Notes under the pieces: generated by a model
The model's input: the letters and a program-made list of their open reading frames with translations, nothing else
Databases searched by the model: none
What the model was told of the DNA's origin: nothing
Translations under genes and position numbers: made by a program
Shown: positions 17,535 through 25,617 of the stretch, one piece after another
Layout of the letters: each line of letters starts with the position of its first letter
Numbering within the stretch: position 1 is the first letter of the stretch
Assembly: GCF_003148665.1 (NCBI RefSeq)
Contig: NZ_QGGQ01000001.1
Location: 389,762-453,761 of the forward strand
Length of the DNA stretch: 64,000 nucleotides
Reading direction: 5' to 3'
From: Maribacter polysiphoniae
GTDB taxonomy: Bacteria; Bacteroidota; Bacteroidia; Flavobacteriales; Flavobacteriaceae

Positions 17535-18560
17535 TTAGGCGGTAAAGGATGAATCGCGAACCAATAGGCTGGTTTTGATTTCTACCGTTTTGATCGCTTC
17601 ATCATTATCTGGGTTTTCTATTTCTTTAATCAGGTATGCAACGGCAGTACGCCCAATTCTATCACCAGGTTGGTCCACAGTGGTCAAGGCAGGTTGTATG
17701 ATTGTGGAATTTACCGAATTGCTGAATCCCACCACGGCGATTTCCTGGGGTATCTTTACATTGAATTTATGAAGTGCTTTAATGGCCCCTATGGCTGCGT
17801 TGTCGGTAATGGCAAAAATGGCGTCGGGCCTTTTCTTTAAACTTAGGAGCATTCTGGTTAGTCTACTGCCATTCTTTAATGAAATGTCCTCAGTGCTGAG
17901 TATTATCTTTTCATCGATGGCTATTTCGTTGTTTCGCAAAGCTCTTAAATAGCCGGCATATCTTTTTTCAGAATTAAAGGAGTTTTCAGTTTCCTTAAGG
18001 ATGGCAATCCTTTTTTTTCCTAGGTTGATAAGATGTTCAACGGCATTGTAAGCAGCTTCTTCTTCGTCGATTACAATTTGGGTACAGGGTATTTTATCAG
18101 AAACTTTATCAAAAAGGACCATAGGTTTATGGTTCAGGATTTGTAGAATGGCATCCAAGGCAGCGGTTTTTTTCGCTAATGACATTAAAATGCCGTCTAC
18201 ACCGAACTGGGTCATCGTTTTTAACATCTCAATTTGTTTGGATTCATTGTTCTGTGATTCGGAGATAATGACACGATAGCCTCTAAATTCGGCTTCTTCT
18301 AAAATACCTTTTAAAATTGTTGAGGTGAACAAGTGGGATATGTTTGGTACGATAACCCCTAAAATATGGGTTTCCTGCGACCGGAAACCCCTTGCAAAAA
18401 GATTCGGTGCGTAATGCTTTTTTTTCGCCAAATTTTTTACGATTTCCTTTGTGGCGGGACTAATATCAGGATGATCATTCAAAGCCCTGGATACTGTGGA
18501 AATGGAGAGCTTTAGTTCGTTTGCCAATTCTTTTAGGGTTGTAGTTCTTTTTTTGGCCAT
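17535..18560 (-). CDS. LacI family transcriptional regulator
   Basis: 341 aa from the ATG at 18560 (MAKKRTTTLKELANEL); an ATG 15 bases upstream would add MNYKI. The HTH is TLKELANELKLSISTVSRALNDHPDIS, followed by the hinge and the periplasmic-binding-type ligand domain (ILGVIVPNISHLFTSTILKGI, then AVVGFSNSVNSTIIQPALTTVDQPGDRIG). It is divergent from the TonB-dependent receptor gene and two LacI-type operator sites lie between them, so it likely represses the glycosyl-glycerate locus and probably itself, with the sugar or its breakdown product as inducer. Confidence 0.93.
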   Translation of the reverse strand: MAKKRTTTLKELANELKLSISTVSRALNDHPDISPATKEIVKNLAKKKHYAPNLFARGFRSQETHILGVIVPNISHLFTSTILKGILEEAEFRGYRVIISESQNNESKQIEMLKTMTQFGVDGILMSLAKKTAALDAILQILNHKPMVLFDKVSDKIPCTQIVIDEEEAAYNAVEHLINLGKKRIAILKETENSFNSEKRYAGYLRALRNNEIAIDEKIILSTEDISLKNGSRLTRMLLSLKKRPDAIFAITDNAAIGAIKALHKFNVKIPQEIAVVGFSNSVNSTIIQPALTTVDQPGDRIGRTAVAYLIKEIENPDNDEAIKTVEIKTSLLVRDSSFTA

Positions 18561-18622
18561 AATCTTATAATTCAAGGGTTTATGTGTTTTTAGGGCAGGA
18601 AAACTAAGTTACAAAACAAATT

Positions 18623-18646
18623 GCAAACGTTGTCGCAAACGTTTGC
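18623..18646. promoter_or_regulatory. Tandem LacI-type operators
   Basis: GCAAACGTTTGC at 18635-18646 is a perfect 12-bp palindrome of the LacI family type (central CG). Directly left of it GCAAACGTTGTC (18623-18634) is the same sequence with two swapped bases. The sites are 12 bases apart, centred between lacI-type gene start (18560) and receptor start (18760). On the forward strand TTG (18643-18645) followed after 16 bases by TAAATTAG may be the receptor promoter, so the operator would overlap its -33 box. No other copy was noticed in the window. Confidence 0.75.
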
Positions 18647-18759
18647 ATAAGAATATGGCAATAAATTAGCATCAATAATGCGATATACCAATAAATTTAC
18701 CGTCAGATTGTAGATATAGTAATATAACAGTCGAACTAATCACTATAAACTCAATAATT

Positions 18760-21354
18760 ATGAAGAAAATTATTTTTGCGGTAATCGGTCTTCTAATAGG
18801 GACAATTAGCTTTGCCCAGACCGAAATCACAGGGAACGTAACTGACAGTTCAGGAGAGCCCATACCAGGGGCGAACATTATTCTAGTTGGAAGTACTTCG
18901 GGAACCACATCGGATTTTGATGGTAATTTTAGTTTTAATACCGATGCAGAAGGTGAACAAACCATTAGGATATCCTATCTGGGATATTTAACCGTTTCAA
19001 AAAGTATTCTACTTACCGGTTCCACGGTTAATATGGATTTTATTTTGGAAGAGGGAGGGGAACAATTGGATGAGGTTCTTTTAACGGCTACCTCCACAAG
19101 AAGATCACAAAAGGAAACACCATTATCTGTTACTTCATTGGGAGCGAAACAATTGGCGAAGGTGAATACGAGTAGTCAGGCCGATGTACTAAGAAGTGTG
19201 CCGGGAATCACCGCAGAGGGCGGCGGTGGTGAAGTGGCCTCCAATATTTTTGTGAGGGGTCTTCCCTCTGGTGGTCAGTATCAATTTAATCCTTTACAAA
19301 TAGATGGAATGCCCGTACTGAGTACTTTTGGGTTAAATTCCTCAGCTCATGATGTTTATTTCAGAAATGACATCGGTATGAAAAGCTTGGAATTTGTCCG
19401 TGGTGGTTCCTCCATTTTGTATGGCGTTGGTTCTGTTGCGGGAATTATTAACTACACAAGTATTACAGGTACCGTTCAGCAAAAAACCACGATAAGGACC
19501 GAAGTGGCTTCCAATTCGAGGTATAAGGCTGATTTTGTTACCAGTGGCCCTCTTGGAGGCGGGGATTCCAAAACATTTTATGCGCTTTCCGGTTTTTACC
19601 GTTATGATGAAGGTCCACTTATCACAGGATTACCCACTGAAGGGTTCCAGTTAAGAGGTAATCTTAAACATATGACCGAAAAGGGCTCGATCACGATTTC
19701 AGGTCAGTTTATCGATGATCAGGTACAATTTTTCCTTCCTTATCCATTGGAAGGAGGTACCCGTAAACGACCCGTAGGCAATGATGGCAATAAAATATTT
19801 ACGTTACAGACAGCGGAAGCCTCTGATATTTCCTATCAAACCCCCGATGGAATTTATAGTTCCCCAATTGAAGAAGGTGTGGCTACACAGGGGTCCTATG
19901 TTATGGCTAATTTTAAACATGGTTTTGACAATGACCTGAAGTTGGATGCCAAGTTGCGCTATTCAAAATATGAGCATCAGTTCAATTTATTTTTGGATGG
20001 TAGTGGGGTAGGCGGTGCCAAGGTAGTAGAGACCCAGCAAGAATATTTAGATGCAAGGGGATTGGCATCTGGGGATTTTACTTTTCTGAATGGCGAAGCC
20101 TTAGATTCCGATGCACTTCTTTTTGAAAATCGAATTTTAGATAGACAAAGGCCATTGAAAGAGCTGATGGCAGATATTAAGTTGACAAAAACAGCCGGGA
20201 ACCACAATATTACACTGGGTACCTTTATGTCCCGTTCAAGTGCTGGGGATTTTAATGTAATCACCAATTATCTAGGGGAGTATAGCAATAGGCCAAGAAT
20301 GGTGAATGTTTCTGATTATAGTATTAATGGTGTAACCAATAGGGGAACCGCATATACAAACAGAAATATTTCCAGCAATAAAATCGCAGCTTTTATTGCT
20401 GATGAGATTAAGTTGGACCGTTGGAATCTGGATTTTGGTTTGCGCTATGAAAGGGCTTCAGGGGATATTGAGAACGAAGGTACTGCTTCCTATGAAGTTG
20501 ATGATACCGGAATTGCCAACTTGGATAATGTCACCTGGGGTAACGGTAGTTTTACAAGAGGTCATGTTTCAGCGAATGATTTTGCCCTGGCCGCTGCCGC
20601 ATTATATAAGGTAAATGACAATTTGAGTGCATATGGTAACTTTTCCAGAGGGTATTTCTTTCCTGAATTAAGGGGTACCAAGTTTGATGCTTTAGGAAAT
20701 CCTGCCTCTTATGAAACTGAGAAAATCCTTCAAGGAGAGTTAGGTGTAAAATATGGCAAGGGAAGTTTTTCAGGTACGGCTGCAGTATATTCAGTTAGTT
20801 TGAAGGATAGAAGGTCAATAAGCTTTGTGAATGCGCCTGGAGGGGGCTTCATAGAGGAAGTAGATACGCAGGACACAAGTACCATTGGTTTTGAAGGAAC
20901 TTGGAATTGGAGATTGCTTGATGACCTTTCCTTTAATGGATCTTTTACCTACCAAGATCATGAAGTAACAAAGTCGGAAAATGACCCTTCAATTGAAGGA
21001 AATCAATTGAGAAGACAGCCAAAAGTAGTCAGTTCTTTCGGGTTTGATTATGATAATGCCATAGTTGATGCTGGCTTTAATTACAATTATACCGGTAAAA
21101 AGTTCACGAATGAAACCAATGCCATAGAATTGGATGCCATTGGGATAGCCAACCTTAACCTTGGGTATACTTTTGATCTGGGTGAAGATGGGGAAACATT
21201 ACGGGTAGGTACACAAGTCTTCAATTTGTTCGATTCTGACGGTATTACAGAAGGTTCACCAAGATTAGGCAATAATCAGACCGAAGAAGAATTCTTTGTT
21301 GGCAGACCTGTTTTACCTACGCGTTTATTCTTTAATGTAACATTCACTTTTTAA
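18760..21354 (+). CDS. TonB-dependent receptor with CarboxypepD_reg domain (putative glycosyl-glycerate uptake)
   Basis: 864 aa outer-membrane receptor. Signal peptide MKKIIFAVIGLLIGTISFAQ; then the carboxypeptidase-regulatory domain (EITGNVTDSSGEPIPGANI, residues about 21-100); the plug (RRSQKETPLSVTSLGAKQLA, VLRSVPGITAEGGGGEVASNIFVRG); and a beta-barrel ending in Phe (LPTRLFFNVTFTF), as outer-membrane barrels do. No SusD partner lies beside it, unlike polysaccharide loci, which suits a small soluble substrate. It heads the putative glycerate-glycoside operon; a hairpin follows the stop. Substrate is inferred from neighbours only. Confidence 0.9.
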   Translation: MKKIIFAVIGLLIGTISFAQTEITGNVTDSSGEPIPGANIILVGSTSGTTSDFDGNFSFNTDAEGEQTIRISYLGYLTVSKSILLTGSTVNMDFILEEGGEQLDEVLLTATSTRRSQKETPLSVTSLGAKQLAKVNTSSQADVLRSVPGITAEGGGGEVASNIFVRGLPSGGQYQFNPLQIDGMPVLSTFGLNSSAHDVYFRNDIGMKSLEFVRGGSSILYGVGSVAGIINYTSITGTVQQKTTIRTEVASNSRYKADFVTSGPLGGGDSKTFYALSGFYRYDEGPLITGLPTEGFQLRGNLKHMTEKGSITISGQFIDDQVQFFLPYPLEGGTRKRPVGNDGNKIFTLQTAEASDISYQTPDGIYSSPIEEGVATQGSYVMANFKHGFDNDLKLDAKLRYSKYEHQFNLFLDGSGVGGAKVVETQQEYLDARGLASGDFTFLNGEALDSDALLFENRILDRQRPLKELMADIKLTKTAGNHNITLGTFMSRSSAGDFNVITNYLGEYSNRPRMVNVSDYSINGVTNRGTAYTNRNISSNKIAAFIADEIKLDRWNLDFGLRYERASGDIENEGTASYEVDDTGIANLDNVTWGNGSFTRGHVSANDFALAAAALYKVNDNLSAYGNFSRGYFFPELRGTKFDALGNPASYETEKILQGELGVKYGKGSFSGTAAVYSVSLKDRRSISFVNAPGGGFIEEVDTQDTSTIGFEGTWNWRLLDDLSFNGSFTYQDHEVTKSENDPSIEGNQLRRQPKVVSSFGFDYDNAIVDAGFNYNYTGKKFTNETNAIELDAIGIANLNLGYTFDLGEDGETLRVGTQVFNLFDSDGITEGSPRLGNNQTEEEFFVGRPVLPTRLFFNVTFTF

Positions 21355-21398
21355 AAATAGTTCCTGTTAGTTTAAGTTAGTTTTTTTAATTCTAAAGT

Positions 21399-21428
21399 CA
21401 TTGGCGGTCTAAAGCCGCCAATGTTTTT
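21399..21428 (+). terminator. Hairpin terminator/attenuator between receptor and hydrolase
   Basis: Perfect 9-bp stem CATTGGCGG (21399-21407) / CCGCCAATG (21415-21423), 7-nt loop, then TTTTTA. It is inside the presumed operon, 20 bases before the hydrolase ATG, and would lower downstream expression relative to the receptor, or protect the receptor mRNA. Confidence 0.7.
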
Positions 21429-21442
21429 ATCAGATTCAATTT

Positions 21443-22756
21443 ATGAAAGAAAATTTAAGAAAGAGGGCCATTGAGGTATTGGATGCCAATTTTCAAGAAG
21501 GTGGCTTTACAATTCCAAGTAAGGGACTTTATCCTTTTCAATGGAAATGGGATTCAGGGTTTATAGCCATAGGCTTTGCCCATTATGATGTTGAAAAGGC
21601 AAAAACAGAGATTCATTCGTTGCTGGATGCCCAATGGGAAAATGGTTTTATACCCCATATTGTTTTTCACAGTGATAATGACTCTTATTTTCCAGGACCC
21701 GATTTTCATCAGTCAGAACGGCACCCACTTTCCTCAAAAAAGTATAGGTCTACCGGGATGACACAACCACCGGTAACCGGTTTCGTTTTACAGGAAATGT
21801 ATCGAATTGCTGAAGACAAGCAAGATATGCTGGCTTTTGTCAAGGACCATATTGATAAGGTTTATGCTAACCATGTTTATTTTTATGAAAATAGAGACCC
21901 CCATAACGAGGGTCTGGTCTATATATACCATAATTGGGAGTCAGGCACGGATAATTCCCCCGTTTGGGATGATATATGGAGTACGATGAATCCGCCAGAA
22001 TACACTTTTGAACGTAGGGACACTACCCATGTAGATGCCTCCCAAAGACCAACAAAACGTGAATATGATCATTATTTATATCTTATTGATATTGCGAAGG
22101 AACATAATTATGATGATGCAAGAATTGCGGAATTATCACCTTTTTTAGTACAAGATCCATTGTTCAATGCCATGTTGATCAAATCTAATGAAGCTTTATT
22201 GGAACTTTATAAGCTTATAGGGGGTAATGGGGATAAAGAAAAGACCTTGCAACAATGGCAGAAAATGAGTATCCGAAATTTTAATAATAAATTGTTCGAC
22301 TCAGAGCTTGGAGCTTACGTGCACTATGATTTAAGAAATGGCAAGCCTATTCGTTTTGTTTCTTCCTCCTCCTTTTCACCTTTGTTCGCCAATATACCGG
22401 ATCAAGAAAGAGCTGAAATTTTGGTGAAAACCATGATGGAGAGGTTTGGGGGTGAGGGTAAATACCTCTGTGCTTCTTTTGACCCTACCAATGAACGGTT
22501 CAATCCCAAAAAGTATTGGCGGGGACCCGTATGGATCAATATGAACTGGGTTTTGTATTATGGACTGAAAAATTACCGTTTTGATGAAATTGCGGAACGT
22601 GTGAGACAAGATTCCATAGCTTTGATAGAACGTGATGGGTTTTTTGAATATTTCGATTGCAGAAAAGATACAGGGGAATCTCAGCGAACAGGCTATGGGG
22701 GCAATAATTTCTCGTGGAGTGCAGCATTGCTATTGGATCTTTTAAAAGAGGGATAA
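21443..22756 (+). CDS. MGH1/GH63-like glycoside hydrolase, putative mannosyl- or glucosylglycerate hydrolase
   Basis: 437-aa (alpha/alpha)6-barrel glycosidase without signal peptide, thus cytoplasmic. YPFQWKWDSGFIAIGFAHYD near the N-terminus, WESGTDNSPVWDD (165-177, Asp170 as candidate general acid), RGPVWINMNWVLYYGLKNY and a C-terminal NNFSWSAALLLD are the pattern of trehalase-like GH63/GH37 and mannosylglycerate hydrolase (MGH1-like) proteins. The catalytic base may be Glu402 or Glu412. Such enzymes split mannosylglycerate or glucosylglycerate to hexose and glycerate. The glycerate kinase two genes downstream strongly supports this reading. Alpha-glucosidase or trehalase activity is the alternative. 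Confidence 0.8.
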   Translation: MKENLRKRAIEVLDANFQEGGFTIPSKGLYPFQWKWDSGFIAIGFAHYDVEKAKTEIHSLLDAQWENGFIPHIVFHSDNDSYFPGPDFHQSERHPLSSKKYRSTGMTQPPVTGFVLQEMYRIAEDKQDMLAFVKDHIDKVYANHVYFYENRDPHNEGLVYIYHNWESGTDNSPVWDDIWSTMNPPEYTFERRDTTHVDASQRPTKREYDHYLYLIDIAKEHNYDDARIAELSPFLVQDPLFNAMLIKSNEALLELYKLIGGNGDKEKTLQQWQKMSIRNFNNKLFDSELGAYVHYDLRNGKPIRFVSSSSFSPLFANIPDQERAEILVKTMMERFGGEGKYLCASFDPTNERFNPKKYWRGPVWINMNWVLYYGLKNYRFDEIAERVRQDSIALIERDGFFEYFDCRKDTGESQRTGYGGNNFSWSAALLLDLLKEG

Positions 22757-22863
22757 TAGTGTCATGACCCACAATTATGCAGACCCTCATTTCACTAAGG
22801 ATTGTATTTTAAGGATTAATTGCACGAAAAGAAGAAAACCGAATTAGTATTACAAATTAAGGT

Positions 22864-24468
22864 ATGAACTATTTAGATTACATCATCATCGTCGTTTACC
22901 TTGTTGCATTTCTAGGAATAGGGTACTTTTTTAAAGAGAATAAGAATTCAGGTGATTATTTCTTAGGTGGTAGAAGTATGGGATGGTTGCCGTTAAGTTT
23001 ATCCACGATGGCCACACAATTGTCTGCCATCAGTTTTATTTCCGCACCTGCATTCGTAGGATTAAAGGAAGGCGGGGGAATGCAATGGTTAACCTATGAG
23101 TTTGGGGTGCCGTTGGCGATGGCATTTTTATTGATTGCCATAATCCCCACCCTGTATAAATCAGGAATCGTAAGTGTTTATGAATATTTGGAAAAAAGAT
23201 TTGATGCTTCCTCACGTTTGTTGATCAGTTTGGTCTTTCAAATCAGTAGGTCTGTGGCTACGGGGGTAATGGTCTATACTATGGCGTTGATTTTACAAGC
23301 GACCATTGGGGTCGACTTTTGGATTTCGGTATTGATCATTGGGGTAATTACCCTGATATATTCTTTTCAAGGGGGTATGAAAGCCGTCATTTGGGGTGAT
23401 GTCATCCAAATGGTGATATTGTTTATGGGCATCGTTATTTGTTTGGTTTATGGTATTAGTGAGCTTGGGGGTTTTGAGAATTTCCTTACCCATGTAGACA
23501 AAGACCGTCTTACCGCCGTTGACTTTACCAAGTGGGGCTTTAGCAATGGGGATAAAAATGATGAATTCGGTTTTTGGCCTATGGCCATTGGTGGTTTTTT
23601 CCTTTATGCGTCCTATTATGGTACCGATCAGACACAATCACAACGCTTATTATCCGCTAAGGATATGCCAACCATAAAAAAGTTGTTGCTTGCCAATGGA
23701 TTGGTGCGTTTTCCATTAACGTTGACCTATTGTATTATGGGGCTGGTATTGGGTACCTTATTGATGCAAGATGCGAATTTTCAGGAATTGATCAATAGTG
23801 TTTACCAGAGTAACATAAGTTCTTTAGAGGGTAAAAAGGCCGATTTAATGGTTCCTGTCTTCATTATAAAATATTTACCAAATGGCATTATCGGTATTCT
23901 GATCGTTGCGATCATGTCCGCAGCCATGTCTTCATTGAGTTCAACGGTAAATTCGCTTTCCGCAGTCACCATGGAAGATTTTGTTAAACGTTTTAAACCC
24001 GAAATGGAAGGTGACCAATATGTGCGTACATCCAGGTTTCTATCCATCTTTTGGGGACTGGTCTGTTTGTTTTTCGCTTTTTTTGCTGGTAATATAGAAG
24101 GAACGGTAATCGAAGTGATCAACAAGATAAGCTCTGTTTTCTATGGTCCTATCTTGGCTGCCTTTATCTTGGCAATCCTAACCAAAAGAACACATGCACT
24201 TGGTGCCAATATTGGTATCGTAGTAGGTGTGTTGTTCAATATTTATCTTTGGTTATATGTGCCCGAGATATTCTGGTTTTGGTGGAATGCACTAGGGTGT
24301 ATTATGACCTTGGTAGTTGCTTATGTTATAAGTTTGGTGGTTAAAAGAAACGTCAACCAAGGCTTGGAGGTGGTTTATTATTCTGGGCGAAAGGAAGTGC
24401 TTATCTTGGTAGGGTTTTTTATTGCCATTGTCCTATTCAGTATTTTTCTACCTGAATTATTGCATTAA
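22864..24468 (+). CDS. Sodium:solute symporter (SSS family)
   Basis: 534-aa inner-membrane protein of the SSS/SLC5 family (about 13-14 TM). Signature: DYFLGGRSMGWLPLSLSTMATQLSAISFI near the N-terminus (the xGGR and the unwound TM1 Na+ site), YYGTDQTQSQRLLSAKD in the middle and IMSAAMSSLSSTVNSLSAVT (SSxxSS sodium-site helix). Typical substrates are sugars, sialic acid or carboxylates. In this operon it would carry the intact glycosyl-glycerate or released sugar across the inner membrane with Na+, which suits a marine organism. It sits between the hydrolase and the glycerate kinase. Confidence 0.93.
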   Translation: MNYLDYIIIVVYLVAFLGIGYFFKENKNSGDYFLGGRSMGWLPLSLSTMATQLSAISFISAPAFVGLKEGGGMQWLTYEFGVPLAMAFLLIAIIPTLYKSGIVSVYEYLEKRFDASSRLLISLVFQISRSVATGVMVYTMALILQATIGVDFWISVLIIGVITLIYSFQGGMKAVIWGDVIQMVILFMGIVICLVYGISELGGFENFLTHVDKDRLTAVDFTKWGFSNGDKNDEFGFWPMAIGGFFLYASYYGTDQTQSQRLLSAKDMPTIKKLLLANGLVRFPLTLTYCIMGLVLGTLLMQDANFQELINSVYQSNISSLEGKKADLMVPVFIIKYLPNGIIGILIVAIMSAAMSSLSSTVNSLSAVTMEDFVKRFKPEMEGDQYVRTSRFLSIFWGLVCLFFAFFAGNIEGTVIEVINKISSVFYGPILAAFILAILTKRTHALGANIGIVVGVLFNIYLWLYVPEIFWFWWNALGCIMTLVVAYVISLVVKRNVNQGLEVVYYSGRKEVLILVGFFIAIVLFSIFLPELLH

Positions 24469-24477
24469 TTTTAACCT

Positions 24478-25617
24478 ATGAAATTTATAATCGCTCCAGA
24501 CAAATTTAAAGGGTCCTTAACCGGATTCGAATTCTGCGATGCCGTGGAAGAAGGTCTTCTTATGGTATTCAAGGAAGCCGAAATCCTAAAAATGCCCTTA
24601 GCCGATGGGGGTGACGGAACCATGGAAGTCGCACGGCATTATATCAAGGGCGATAGGGTCTCGGTAACGGTTAATGACCCACTTTTTCGGCCTATTGGGG
24701 CATCCTATCTTTATTCCAGGAGTACCAAGATTGCCTATATTGAAATGGCCGAGGCATCCGGACTCAAGTTACTTCAAGAGGGTGAACGCAATTGTATGCA
24801 TACGACCACATTGGGTACGGGCGAACTAATTGTCGATGCATTGGAAAAGGGCGCCAAGGAAATTATACTGGGTATCGGAGGAAGTGCCACCAATGATGGG
24901 GGTATGGGAATGGCAAATGCCTTGGGATATGGATTCTTGGATGATAAGGGGAAAGAATTGAAACCCATAGGAAGTAATCTTTCCGCGGTACGGAAAATCG
25001 ATGATTCGAACAAAAACCCTAAACTCAATGGAGTAAAGGTAAAGGTCGCTTGCGACGTTACGAATCCGTTTTATGGCAAAAATGGTGCGGCCTATGTATA
25101 TGCTGGGCAAAAAGGGGCATCAGACAATGAAATTGCACTATTGGATCAAGGGCTGAACAATTTTGCCAAGGTTATTGAAAAGCAGTACAATATAAATTTA
25201 CAGGAATTGGGCGGCGTCGGTGCAGCCGGTGGGGTTGGAGGCGGTGCCCTCATTTTCCTTAATGGTGATTTGACTTCAGGTATTGATCTGATCAAGGAAT
25301 TGGCGGACTTTGATAAAACAATCGAAGGTGCTGACTGGATTATCACAGGGGAAGGTCAGTTAGATGAACAAACACTCTCTGGGAAGACCATCGATGGGGT
25401 CGTTACCTCGGCAACATTAAAACAGATACCCGTAGCTGCCTTATGCGGATCGGTCAGTATATCCATAACACAACAACAAGCATTTAAACTCGATTATGTA
25501 GTTTCTATAGTGAGAGGAATATCCAATTTGAAGGAAGCTATGGAGAAGAGTTATGACAATCTCGTCAATGCCAGTTATAACTTTGCCAATCTTATAAAAC
25601 AAAAGACCTCGAAATGA
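24478..25617 (+). CDS. Glycerate kinase (GarK/GlxK family)
   Basis: 379 aa, PF02595 family, phosphorylates D-glycerate with ATP (2-phosphoglycerate in GarK-like enzymes) into lower glycolysis. Motifs: FIIAPDKFKGSLTG at the N-terminus, KMPLADGGDGTMEVA, IGIGGSATNDGGMGMANALGYGF, and DWIITGEGQLDEQTLSGKT near the C-terminus. Start is 9 bases after the symporter stop. Together with the hydrolase it gives a complete route from glycosyl-glycerate to central metabolism. The tail overlaps an ATG of a short broken frame (ATGA). Confidence 0.95.
   Translation: MKFIIAPDKFKGSLTGFEFCDAVEEGLLMVFKEAEILKMPLADGGDGTMEVARHYIKGDRVSVTVNDPLFRPIGASYLYSRSTKIAYIEMAEASGLKLLQEGERNCMHTTTLGTGELIVDALEKGAKEIILGIGGSATNDGGMGMANALGYGFLDDKGKELKPIGSNLSAVRKIDDSNKNPKLNGVKVKVACDVTNPFYGKNGAAYVYAGQKGASDNEIALLDQGLNNFAKVIEKQYNINLQELGGVGAAGGVGGGALIFLNGDLTSGIDLIKELADFDKTIEGADWIITGEGQLDEQTLSGKTIDGVVTSATLKQIPVAALCGSVSISITQQQAFKLDYVVSIVRGISNLKEAMEKSYDNLVNASYNFANLIKQKTSK

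Follow-up and report, generated by a model that had tools for sequence, protein, structure and literature searches.

The window, a stretch of 64,000 nucleotides from Maribacter polysiphoniae, contains a five-gene cluster that probably (with a probability of about 0.75, as judged from sequence) serves the catabolism of the red-algal solute mannosylglycerate (digeneaside) under the control of LacI. The sequence shows what the genes are, how they are ordered and conserved, the active-site residues and the operator, and from these we infer the substrate, the transport steps, the inducer and the mannose-acting kinase as follows. The anionic solute would cross the outer membrane through the TonB receptor and be carried intact into the cytoplasm by the sodium symporter. 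There, the GH63 hydrolase would cleave mannosylglycerate to mannose and D-glycerate. Glycerate would then be phosphorylated by the glycerate kinase, to 2-phosphoglycerate if the enzyme is like other class I glycerate kinases, which yield this product. Mannose would be converted to fructose-6-phosphate by a ROK kinase and a phosphomannose isomerase encoded elsewhere in the genome, and the solute or one of its products would free LacI from its tandem operator.

Gene set and its conservation

The preliminary description had named a LacI regulator, a TonB receptor, a hydrolase, a Na+ symporter and a glycerate kinase as contiguous genes, and all of them were indeed found by profile searches (Table 1). 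The glycerate kinase, which starts 9 bases after the symporter, scored 453.1 bits on PF02595 (cut-off, 23.3) and 427.6 bits on TIGR00045 (cut-off, 168.45), and the top solved relatives of the symporter are iodide, multivitamin and monocarboxylate cotransporters and 5nv9. The receptor reached 101.1 bits on the SusC model TIGR04056 (cut-off, 368.25), and no SusD gene is present among the genes of the cluster, which thus has no SusC/SusD pair. Read by eye, the ATG at 18560 is the likelier start of the LacI gene.

Table 1. Features of the cluster (positions in the window)
Feature	Position	Strand	Basis
LacI-family regulator	17535..18575	-	PF00356 plus PF00532/PF13377
Tandem LacI operator (predicted)	18623..18646		Partial copy 18623-18634 and perfect palindrome 18635-18646
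TonB-dependent receptor, CarboxypepD_reg domain	18760..21354	+	PF13715, PF07715, PF00593
Terminator-like hairpin, receptor-hydrolase gap	21399..21423	+	10 pairs, then TTTTT
GH63, MGH1-like hydrolase (mannosylglycerate/glucosylglycerate, predicted)	21443..22756	+	PF22422 1.7e-94
Sodium:solute symporter (SSF)	22864..24468	+	PF00474 7.8e-50; TIGR00813 over cut-off
Class I glycerate kinase	24478..25617	+	PF02595 8.9e-136; TIGR00045 over cut-off

The gene set is not assembled by chance, since its order is kept in related loci: hydrolase, symporter and kinase follow each other on one strand in 72 of 80 loci, and 58 of the 80 also have a TonB gene upstream and a divergent LacI gene. These loci are the best 80 of the 149 found, a sample that leans to close relatives. 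The five-gene order is also present in Zobellia (loci L021, L025, L027, L029 and L030), and some relatives, such as L011, L026 and L067, have no receptor beside the hydrolase. A fairer count is given by a sample of 299 genomes of the family, in which the hydrolase was called at E <= 1e-60 and the kinase at E <= 1e-40. The hydrolase was present in 43 of them, and all 43 also had the kinase, compared with 92 of the 256 genomes without hydrolase (p = 1.8e-17, uncorrected for relatedness), two of the 92 being from the genus of the window. In 37 of the 43 genomes, the two genes were within 6 kb of each other. The co-occurrence that the preliminary description had proposed to look for is therefore found in the family. 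As far as tested, the link to the kinase does not extend beyond this family: none of 10 loci from outside it had a glycerate kinase match (the symporter was found in 3 and the receptor in 2). A second glycerate kinase in the M. polysiphoniae genome was considered and rejected: in profile searches, the window kinase was the only PF02595 gene, and PF13660 had no match.

Active site of the hydrolase and nature of the substrate

The closest solved structure is that of Thermus TTHA0978 (2z07, 4wva), with 333 bits and an alignment that spans residues 5-431 of the window protein; mycobacterial chains scored 213-221 bits. The contact residues of glucosylglycerate hydrolase are named in an excerpt of PMC6608630, and since all 20 of them fit 5ohc_A at an offset of 2, this chain, labeled just "Hydrolase" in the PDB, was taken as the Mycolicibacterium hassiacum enzyme. 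Of these substrate-contact positions, 19 of 20 are identical in the window hydrolase and 18 of 20 are invariant across 98 family sequences. In M. hassiacum numbering, the catalytic residues D182 (acid) and E419 (base) correspond to D170 and E402 of the window protein, both invariant in the 98 sequences; the glycerate-binding residues Y36, W40, Y88, R216 and Y375 correspond to Y30, W34, Y82, R202 and Y358, and the water-linked Y222 corresponds to Y208. The sole change is that from Q434 to F423, as in the Thermus mannosylglycerate hydrolase (MgH). No signal peptide was seen by eye. The NCBIfam equivalog model for glucosylglycerate hydrolase, NF047898, gave 336.9 bits, which is below its cut-off of 550, and no NCBIfam model for mannosylglycerate hydrolase matched the protein. 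A second MGH1-like gene of the genome (C8:199694-201016) was rejected as a functional duplicate because it lacks the counterparts of Q115, R216, Y222 and Y375; inspected by eye, its neighbors are SusC/D-like and sulfatase genes, and its protein starts like a lipoprotein. Two more weak PF22422 matches are located on C6 and at C1:351428.

The route put forward in the preliminary description, with a glycosyl-glycerate taken up and split and the glycerate phosphorylated, gains support from the active-site residues, from the kinase link in the family and from the presence of a sole PF02595 kinase. A trehalase or general alpha-glucosidase cluster, with the kinase as a chance neighbor, has in its favor the scores over the cut-offs on PF01204 (trehalase, 52.3 bits) and PF03200 (32.2 bits), but PF22422 scored far better (317.8 bits), the residues that bind glycerate are kept in the window protein and invariant in 98 sequences, and the kinase accompanies the hydrolase in 43 of 43 genomes. 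We therefore regard a trehalase as highly improbable and rejected this identity. Nearly as improbable is turnover of a mannosyl- or glucosylglycerate osmolyte made by the cell itself. The mycobacterial glucosylglycerate hydrolase acts on an internal store, according to a part of PMC6608630, and a homologue of the hydrolase (44% identical), found in a genome from a different family, is encoded next to a mannosyl-3-phosphoglycerate synthase. However, the window hydrolase gene is accompanied by those for a TonB receptor and a symporter, and a profile search of the genome for the synthase (PF09488 only) found none, which makes an external source likely.

Unlikely, but less so than the two former explanations, is the same cluster and mechanism with glucosylglycerate (for example, from marine picocyanobacteria) as the main natural substrate, which would release glucose and glycerate. 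Sequence does not fix the hexose because characterized relatives cleave both glycosylglycerates, the MgH enzymes of Thermus and Selaginella with similar efficiency (excerpt of PMC6608630). For glucosylglycerate speak the best NCBIfam model, although under its cut-off, and the fact that glucose needs no isomerase: 63 of 73 relatives, the window cluster included, have none directly after the kinase. In the other 10 of the 73, however, the kinase is directly followed, at a distance of no more than 15 bases, by a gene for a mannose-6-phosphate isomerase, which belongs to either of two families, and F423 is shared with Thermus MgH and not with the mycobacterial enzyme. These isomerases, 4 of type I and 6 of the cupin type (3 of the 4 and 3 of the 6 checked with Pfam, the rest assigned by clustering), make up 10 of the 11 cases in which the gap after the kinase is under 20 bases; one of them (L042), entered by hand, stands behind symporter and kinase fragments with no intact kinase. 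Isomerase matches were absent from another 17 loci of the family (L093-L109), of which 12 included the kinase and downstream sequence, and from the 10 loci outside the family. The cluster of the window itself contains no mannose gene, and the single PF20511 isomerase of the genome is encoded on another contig. The isomerase genes that end the cluster in these 10 relatives, evidence that was not available to the preliminary description, favor mannosylglycerate over glucosylglycerate as the substrate, in line with its suggestion of digeneaside.

Operator and receptor-hydrolase hairpin

The LacI operator named in the preliminary description was found upstream of the receptor gene. The perfect palindrome (GCAAACGTTTGC) has a single exact occurrence in the 5.13-Mb genome, and its center is 12 bases from that of the partial copy. 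At least one operator site was present in 63 of 66 upstream regions, and the 12-base pair was present in 47 of 66 (window included). A wider LacI regulon was considered and rejected: one exact operator exists genome-wide, and one-mismatch matches, found in five places, are at chance level, as a control with the reversed pattern gave 8 matches a strand versus 6. Likewise rejected was an operator at the genome's own phosphomannose isomerase, where the surrounding 12 kb had five weak matches, none of them convincing. It is possible, but we consider it doubtful, that many Flavobacteriaceae have dedicated, TonB-dependent uptake of mannosylglycerate as food and that LacI reads two overlapping palindromes with centers exactly 12 bases apart. 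If so, two ordinary LacI dimers on the 12-base tandem would compete for the shared middle or bind with unusual cooperativity, and operators would then be recognized in a way that is new for the LacI family.

Hairpins like that between receptor and hydrolase genes were found in 23 of 64 such gaps (window included), compared with a mean of 0.5 in shuffled sequences. The hairpin is probably a partial terminator, which argues against a single uniform transcript of the cluster. In scans of the whole window, terminators numbered 12 versus 8.0 in shuffles; a promoter scan (27 versus 23.6 in shuffles) was uninformative.

Relation to known systems

The preliminary description hinted that no such locus had been described in Bacteroidota, and this does not hold: a passage of PMC8072126 reports predicted digeneaside degradation genes in the alga-associated flavobacteria Zobellia galactanivorans and Maribacter dokdonensis 62-1, citing Barbeyron et al. 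2016, and part of PMC6298971 lists digeneaside as a predicted substrate of a polysaccharide utilization locus. These printed genes may be those of our cluster, whose five-gene order is present in the Zobellia loci. In PMC5507952, glucosylglycerate is named once, as a putative osmolyte; words starting with digeneaside or glycerate are absent from the main text of PMC9296495. Among the literature matches listed (titles and abstract openings), there was no experimental study of the cluster in Bacteroidota. Digeneaside use had thus been proposed in the literature for relatives of this bacterium, and the present analysis mainly strengthens that idea.

In our judgment, genome annotation covers small algal solutes as carbon sources less well than algal polysaccharides. 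A firm signature composed of the hydrolase, the symporter and the glycerate kinase, in some cases a mannose-6-phosphate isomerase, and the tandem operator should allow digeneaside users to be recognized in genomes and metagenomes, and it can be tested simply in cultivable strains of Zobellia or Maribacter.

Escherichia coli uses 2-O-alpha-mannosylglycerate as food by means of mngAB, with mngR, by phosphotransferase system (PTS) uptake with phosphorylation and a GH38 mannosidase, whereas the window cluster combines a symporter, a GH63 hydrolase and a glycerate kinase. With SusCD polysaccharide utilization loci, it shares the occurrence in Bacteroidota, TonB-linked uptake and a nearby regulator but differs in having no SusD, a receptor under the SusC cut-off, a hydrolase with no visible signal peptide and a small predicted substrate. 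Glucosylglycerate phosphorylases such as E. coli YcjM (GH13_18) likewise convert a glycosylglycerate to sugar and glycerate, but by phosphorolysis to glucose-1-phosphate and with an enzyme of a different family (excerpt of PMC8950772). The M. hassiacum hydrolase, which prefers glucosylglycerate and acts in recovery from nitrogen starvation (in part of PMC6608630), shares the contacts of the window protein except for its Q434, and Thermus thermophilus MgH (TTHA0978; 2z07, 4wva-4wvc) has F at this position, like the window protein.

Gene order in the window and in related loci

The preliminary description had called five genes in the window, and all five were located, with calls and coordinates correct. 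The plus-strand genes are separated, from receptor to kinase, by 88, 107 and 9 bases. The set is flanked by a universal stress protein gene (plus strand) before the LacI gene and by a beta-lactamase-family gene (minus strand) beyond the kinase gene.

Genes of the cluster, in window coordinates
Gene product	Position	Strand
LacI regulator	17535-18575	minus
TonB-dependent receptor	18760-21354	plus
MGH1-like glycoside hydrolase	21443-22756	plus
Sodium:solute symporter	22864-24468	plus
Glycerate kinase	24478-25617	plus

The cluster is real and well conserved within Flavobacteriaceae. The order hydrolase-symporter-kinase is retained in 72 of the 80 best related loci (of 149 found; L numbers). In the exceptions, a contig end cuts the locus (L043, L071), the symporter is fragmented (L042, L083), the kinase is absent from the stretch (L079, L086, L087) or neither symporter nor kinase lies within the 6-kb record (L085). 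Symporter, kinase and receptor each occur as at least two sequence types occupying the same slot (symporters, for example, with ~83% and ~55% identity to that of the window); thus, within the family, the combination is maintained and its parts are swapped. A clustered receptor was found in 63 of the best 80 loci; a contig end cuts the receptor in L028, L031 and L032, and the LacI gene immediately adjoins the hydrolase gene in L011, L026 and L067.

The window receptor is 75 to 81% identical to receptors of five Cellulophaga loci and only ~50% identical to those from genera with closer hydrolases, a mismatch which suggests that the receptor gene was exchanged. In Frigoriflavimonas asaccharolytica (L042:8331-9747), both symporter and kinase are reduced to fragments beside retained neighboring genes, and the pathway appears broken in this locus. 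Wenyingzhuangia heitensis (L072:8269-10272) carries an inserted GH97 enzyme between its hydrolase and its symporter. In Allomuricauda and related loci (L051, L066, L076, L081, L082), symporter and kinase are separated by an LD-carboxypeptidase-like gene, which matched PF02016 in L051, the one tested. A GNAT acetyltransferase gene is located 3' of the hydrolase in 21 of the 80 loci (e.g., L012:5431-6039) and also behind that of L127 (8379-8981), from a genome of another family; both genes tested matched PF13302.

Hydrolase and glycerate kinase

The top Pfam match of the hydrolase was PF22422 (317.8 bits), with trehalase far lower (52.3 bits), and its top PDB match was Thermus TTHA0978 (333 bits), followed by mycobacterial hydrolase chains (213 to 221 bits) and YgjK (42 bits). 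PMC6608630 names the entry 4wva as the Thermus mannosylglycerate hydrolase and also gives the substrate-holding residues. We transferred its 20 substrate-contact positions to the window protein through the printed alignment and found 19 to be identical, including both catalytic residues and those binding glycerate. The one difference is Q434 (numbering of the Mycolicibacterium hassiacum enzyme), which is F423 in the window protein and likewise F in the Thermus enzyme. Across 98 family sequences (window, 80 best and 17 further loci), 18 of the 20 positions were invariant, the variable ones being H78 (Q in 2) and F89 (Y in 7). This test is able to fail, since the genome's other clear MGH1-like protein has gaps or different residues at Q115, R216, Y222 and Y375. 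No signal sequence was visible by eye in the window hydrolase, and therefore the glycoside should enter the cell whole. An MGH1-type hydrolase with lipoprotein-like character lies elsewhere in this genome (C8:194000-207000, L091), in a separate cluster that, as read by eye, also holds SusC/D-like genes and sulfatases.

The genome has no PF02595 gene besides that of the window glycerate kinase, and a profile search revealed no PF13660 kinase in it. The database check of hydrolase-kinase co-occurrence that the preliminary description had proposed was run on 299 Flavobacteriaceae genomes (E up to 1e-60 for the hydrolase and 1e-40 for the kinase), of which 43 had the hydrolase and 135 the kinase. 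It bore out the link within the family: the kinase was present in 43/43 hydrolase genomes, versus 92/256 without hydrolase (Fisher p = 1.8e-17, relatedness ignored), and lay within 6 kb of the hydrolase in 37 of the 43; at least two of the other six have the kinase at the extreme end of a contig. Loci from outside the family speak against the link: of 10 hydrolase loci (9 genomes), none had a kinase match, 3 had the symporter and 2 the receptor. Judged from sequence, the substrate of the cluster would be a glycosyl-glycerate, with a probability of about 0.93.

Mannose or glucose as the sugar

Since the Thermus and Selaginella enzymes cleave mannosyl- and glucosylglycerate with similar efficiency, according to PMC6608630, the hydrolase sequence cannot settle the sugar. 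In 73 loci, we listed same-strand genes of at least 80 residues starting no more than 150 bases past the kinase and found 27. Eleven followed with a gap of <20 bases, 10 encoding a mannose-6-phosphate isomerase and 1 a DUF819 protein. Four isomerases are of type I (PF20511; two from Lutibacter, one each from Aquimarina and Spongiivirga) and six are small cupin proteins (PF01050; three from Flavobacterium, one from Frigoriflavimonas, two from metagenome genomes). Two isomerase families doing the same job in the same position indicate mannose, and the gene neighbours thus give a hint in its favor. A ROK sugar kinase lies 61 bases past the kinase in L032, and the remaining followers have no clear tie to either sugar. 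Against mannose speaks that no isomerase match was found in the 17 additional loci from the family, of which 12 include the kinase and sequence beyond it, or in the 10 loci outside the family. The window's genome has a single type I isomerase gene, on another contig, and seven ROK match stretches, none close to the ROK protein of L032.

Of 395 genomes sampled across the phylum, the hydrolase was present in 19, including 12 outside Flavobacteriaceae. In L131, from outside the family, the homologue has a mannosyl-3-phosphoglycerate synthase (PF09488, 522 bits) and a phosphatase of HAD type as neighbors, an arrangement that connects hydrolases of this type with mannosylglycerate. A profile search found no PF09488 gene in the window's genome, and thus the solute should have an external origin. 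Among solved structures, the symporter comes closest to the sodium/iodide, multivitamin and monocarboxylate cotransporters and to 5nv9, a sialic acid carrier; glucose carriers rank behind. These relatives carry anions and mannosylglycerate is also an anion, a weak analogy. The receptor is not SusC-like at the curated cutoff. Mannosylglycerate is the probable main substrate.

Regulatory sequences and published loci

A LacI operator, GCAAACGTTTGC, is predicted at 18635-18646, and its exact match is unique in the genome. Among 66 upstream regions (window and 65 relatives), 63 contained a site with no more than one mismatch and 47 a pair of such sites with centers exactly 12 bases apart, the only other spacings being 97 and 109, once each; GCAAACGTT occurred in 58 of the 66, versus 0.1 on average in base shuffles. 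At 18623-18646, two putative LacI palindromes form an overlapping tandem, 12 bases from center to center, and no other short spacing was found in the 66 regions. A terminator-like hairpin with a T tail is located at 21399-21423, between receptor and hydrolase. Such hairpins were found in 23 of 64 receptor-hydrolase gaps, versus 0.5 in base shuffles, and not in the other 41. Only 19 bases separate the hairpin from the hydrolase start, too few to hold a promoter, and we therefore read it as a putative partial terminator that may hold the receptor transcript in excess.

The preliminary description had hinted that no such Bacteroidota locus was described. That hint does not hold: PMC8072126, with reference to Barbeyron et al. 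2016, reports that Maribacter dokdonensis 62-1 has homologues of Zobellia galactanivorans digeneaside (mannosylglycerate) degradation genes, and PMC6298971 includes digeneaside among additional substrates that PULs of North Sea Flavobacteriia may have, so that the idea is already published. The co-occurrence count, the isomerase neighbors, the mapping of contact residues and the tandem operator are added here, none of which we met in a limited literature search. In the five Zobellia loci fetched, the gene order is that of the window cluster.
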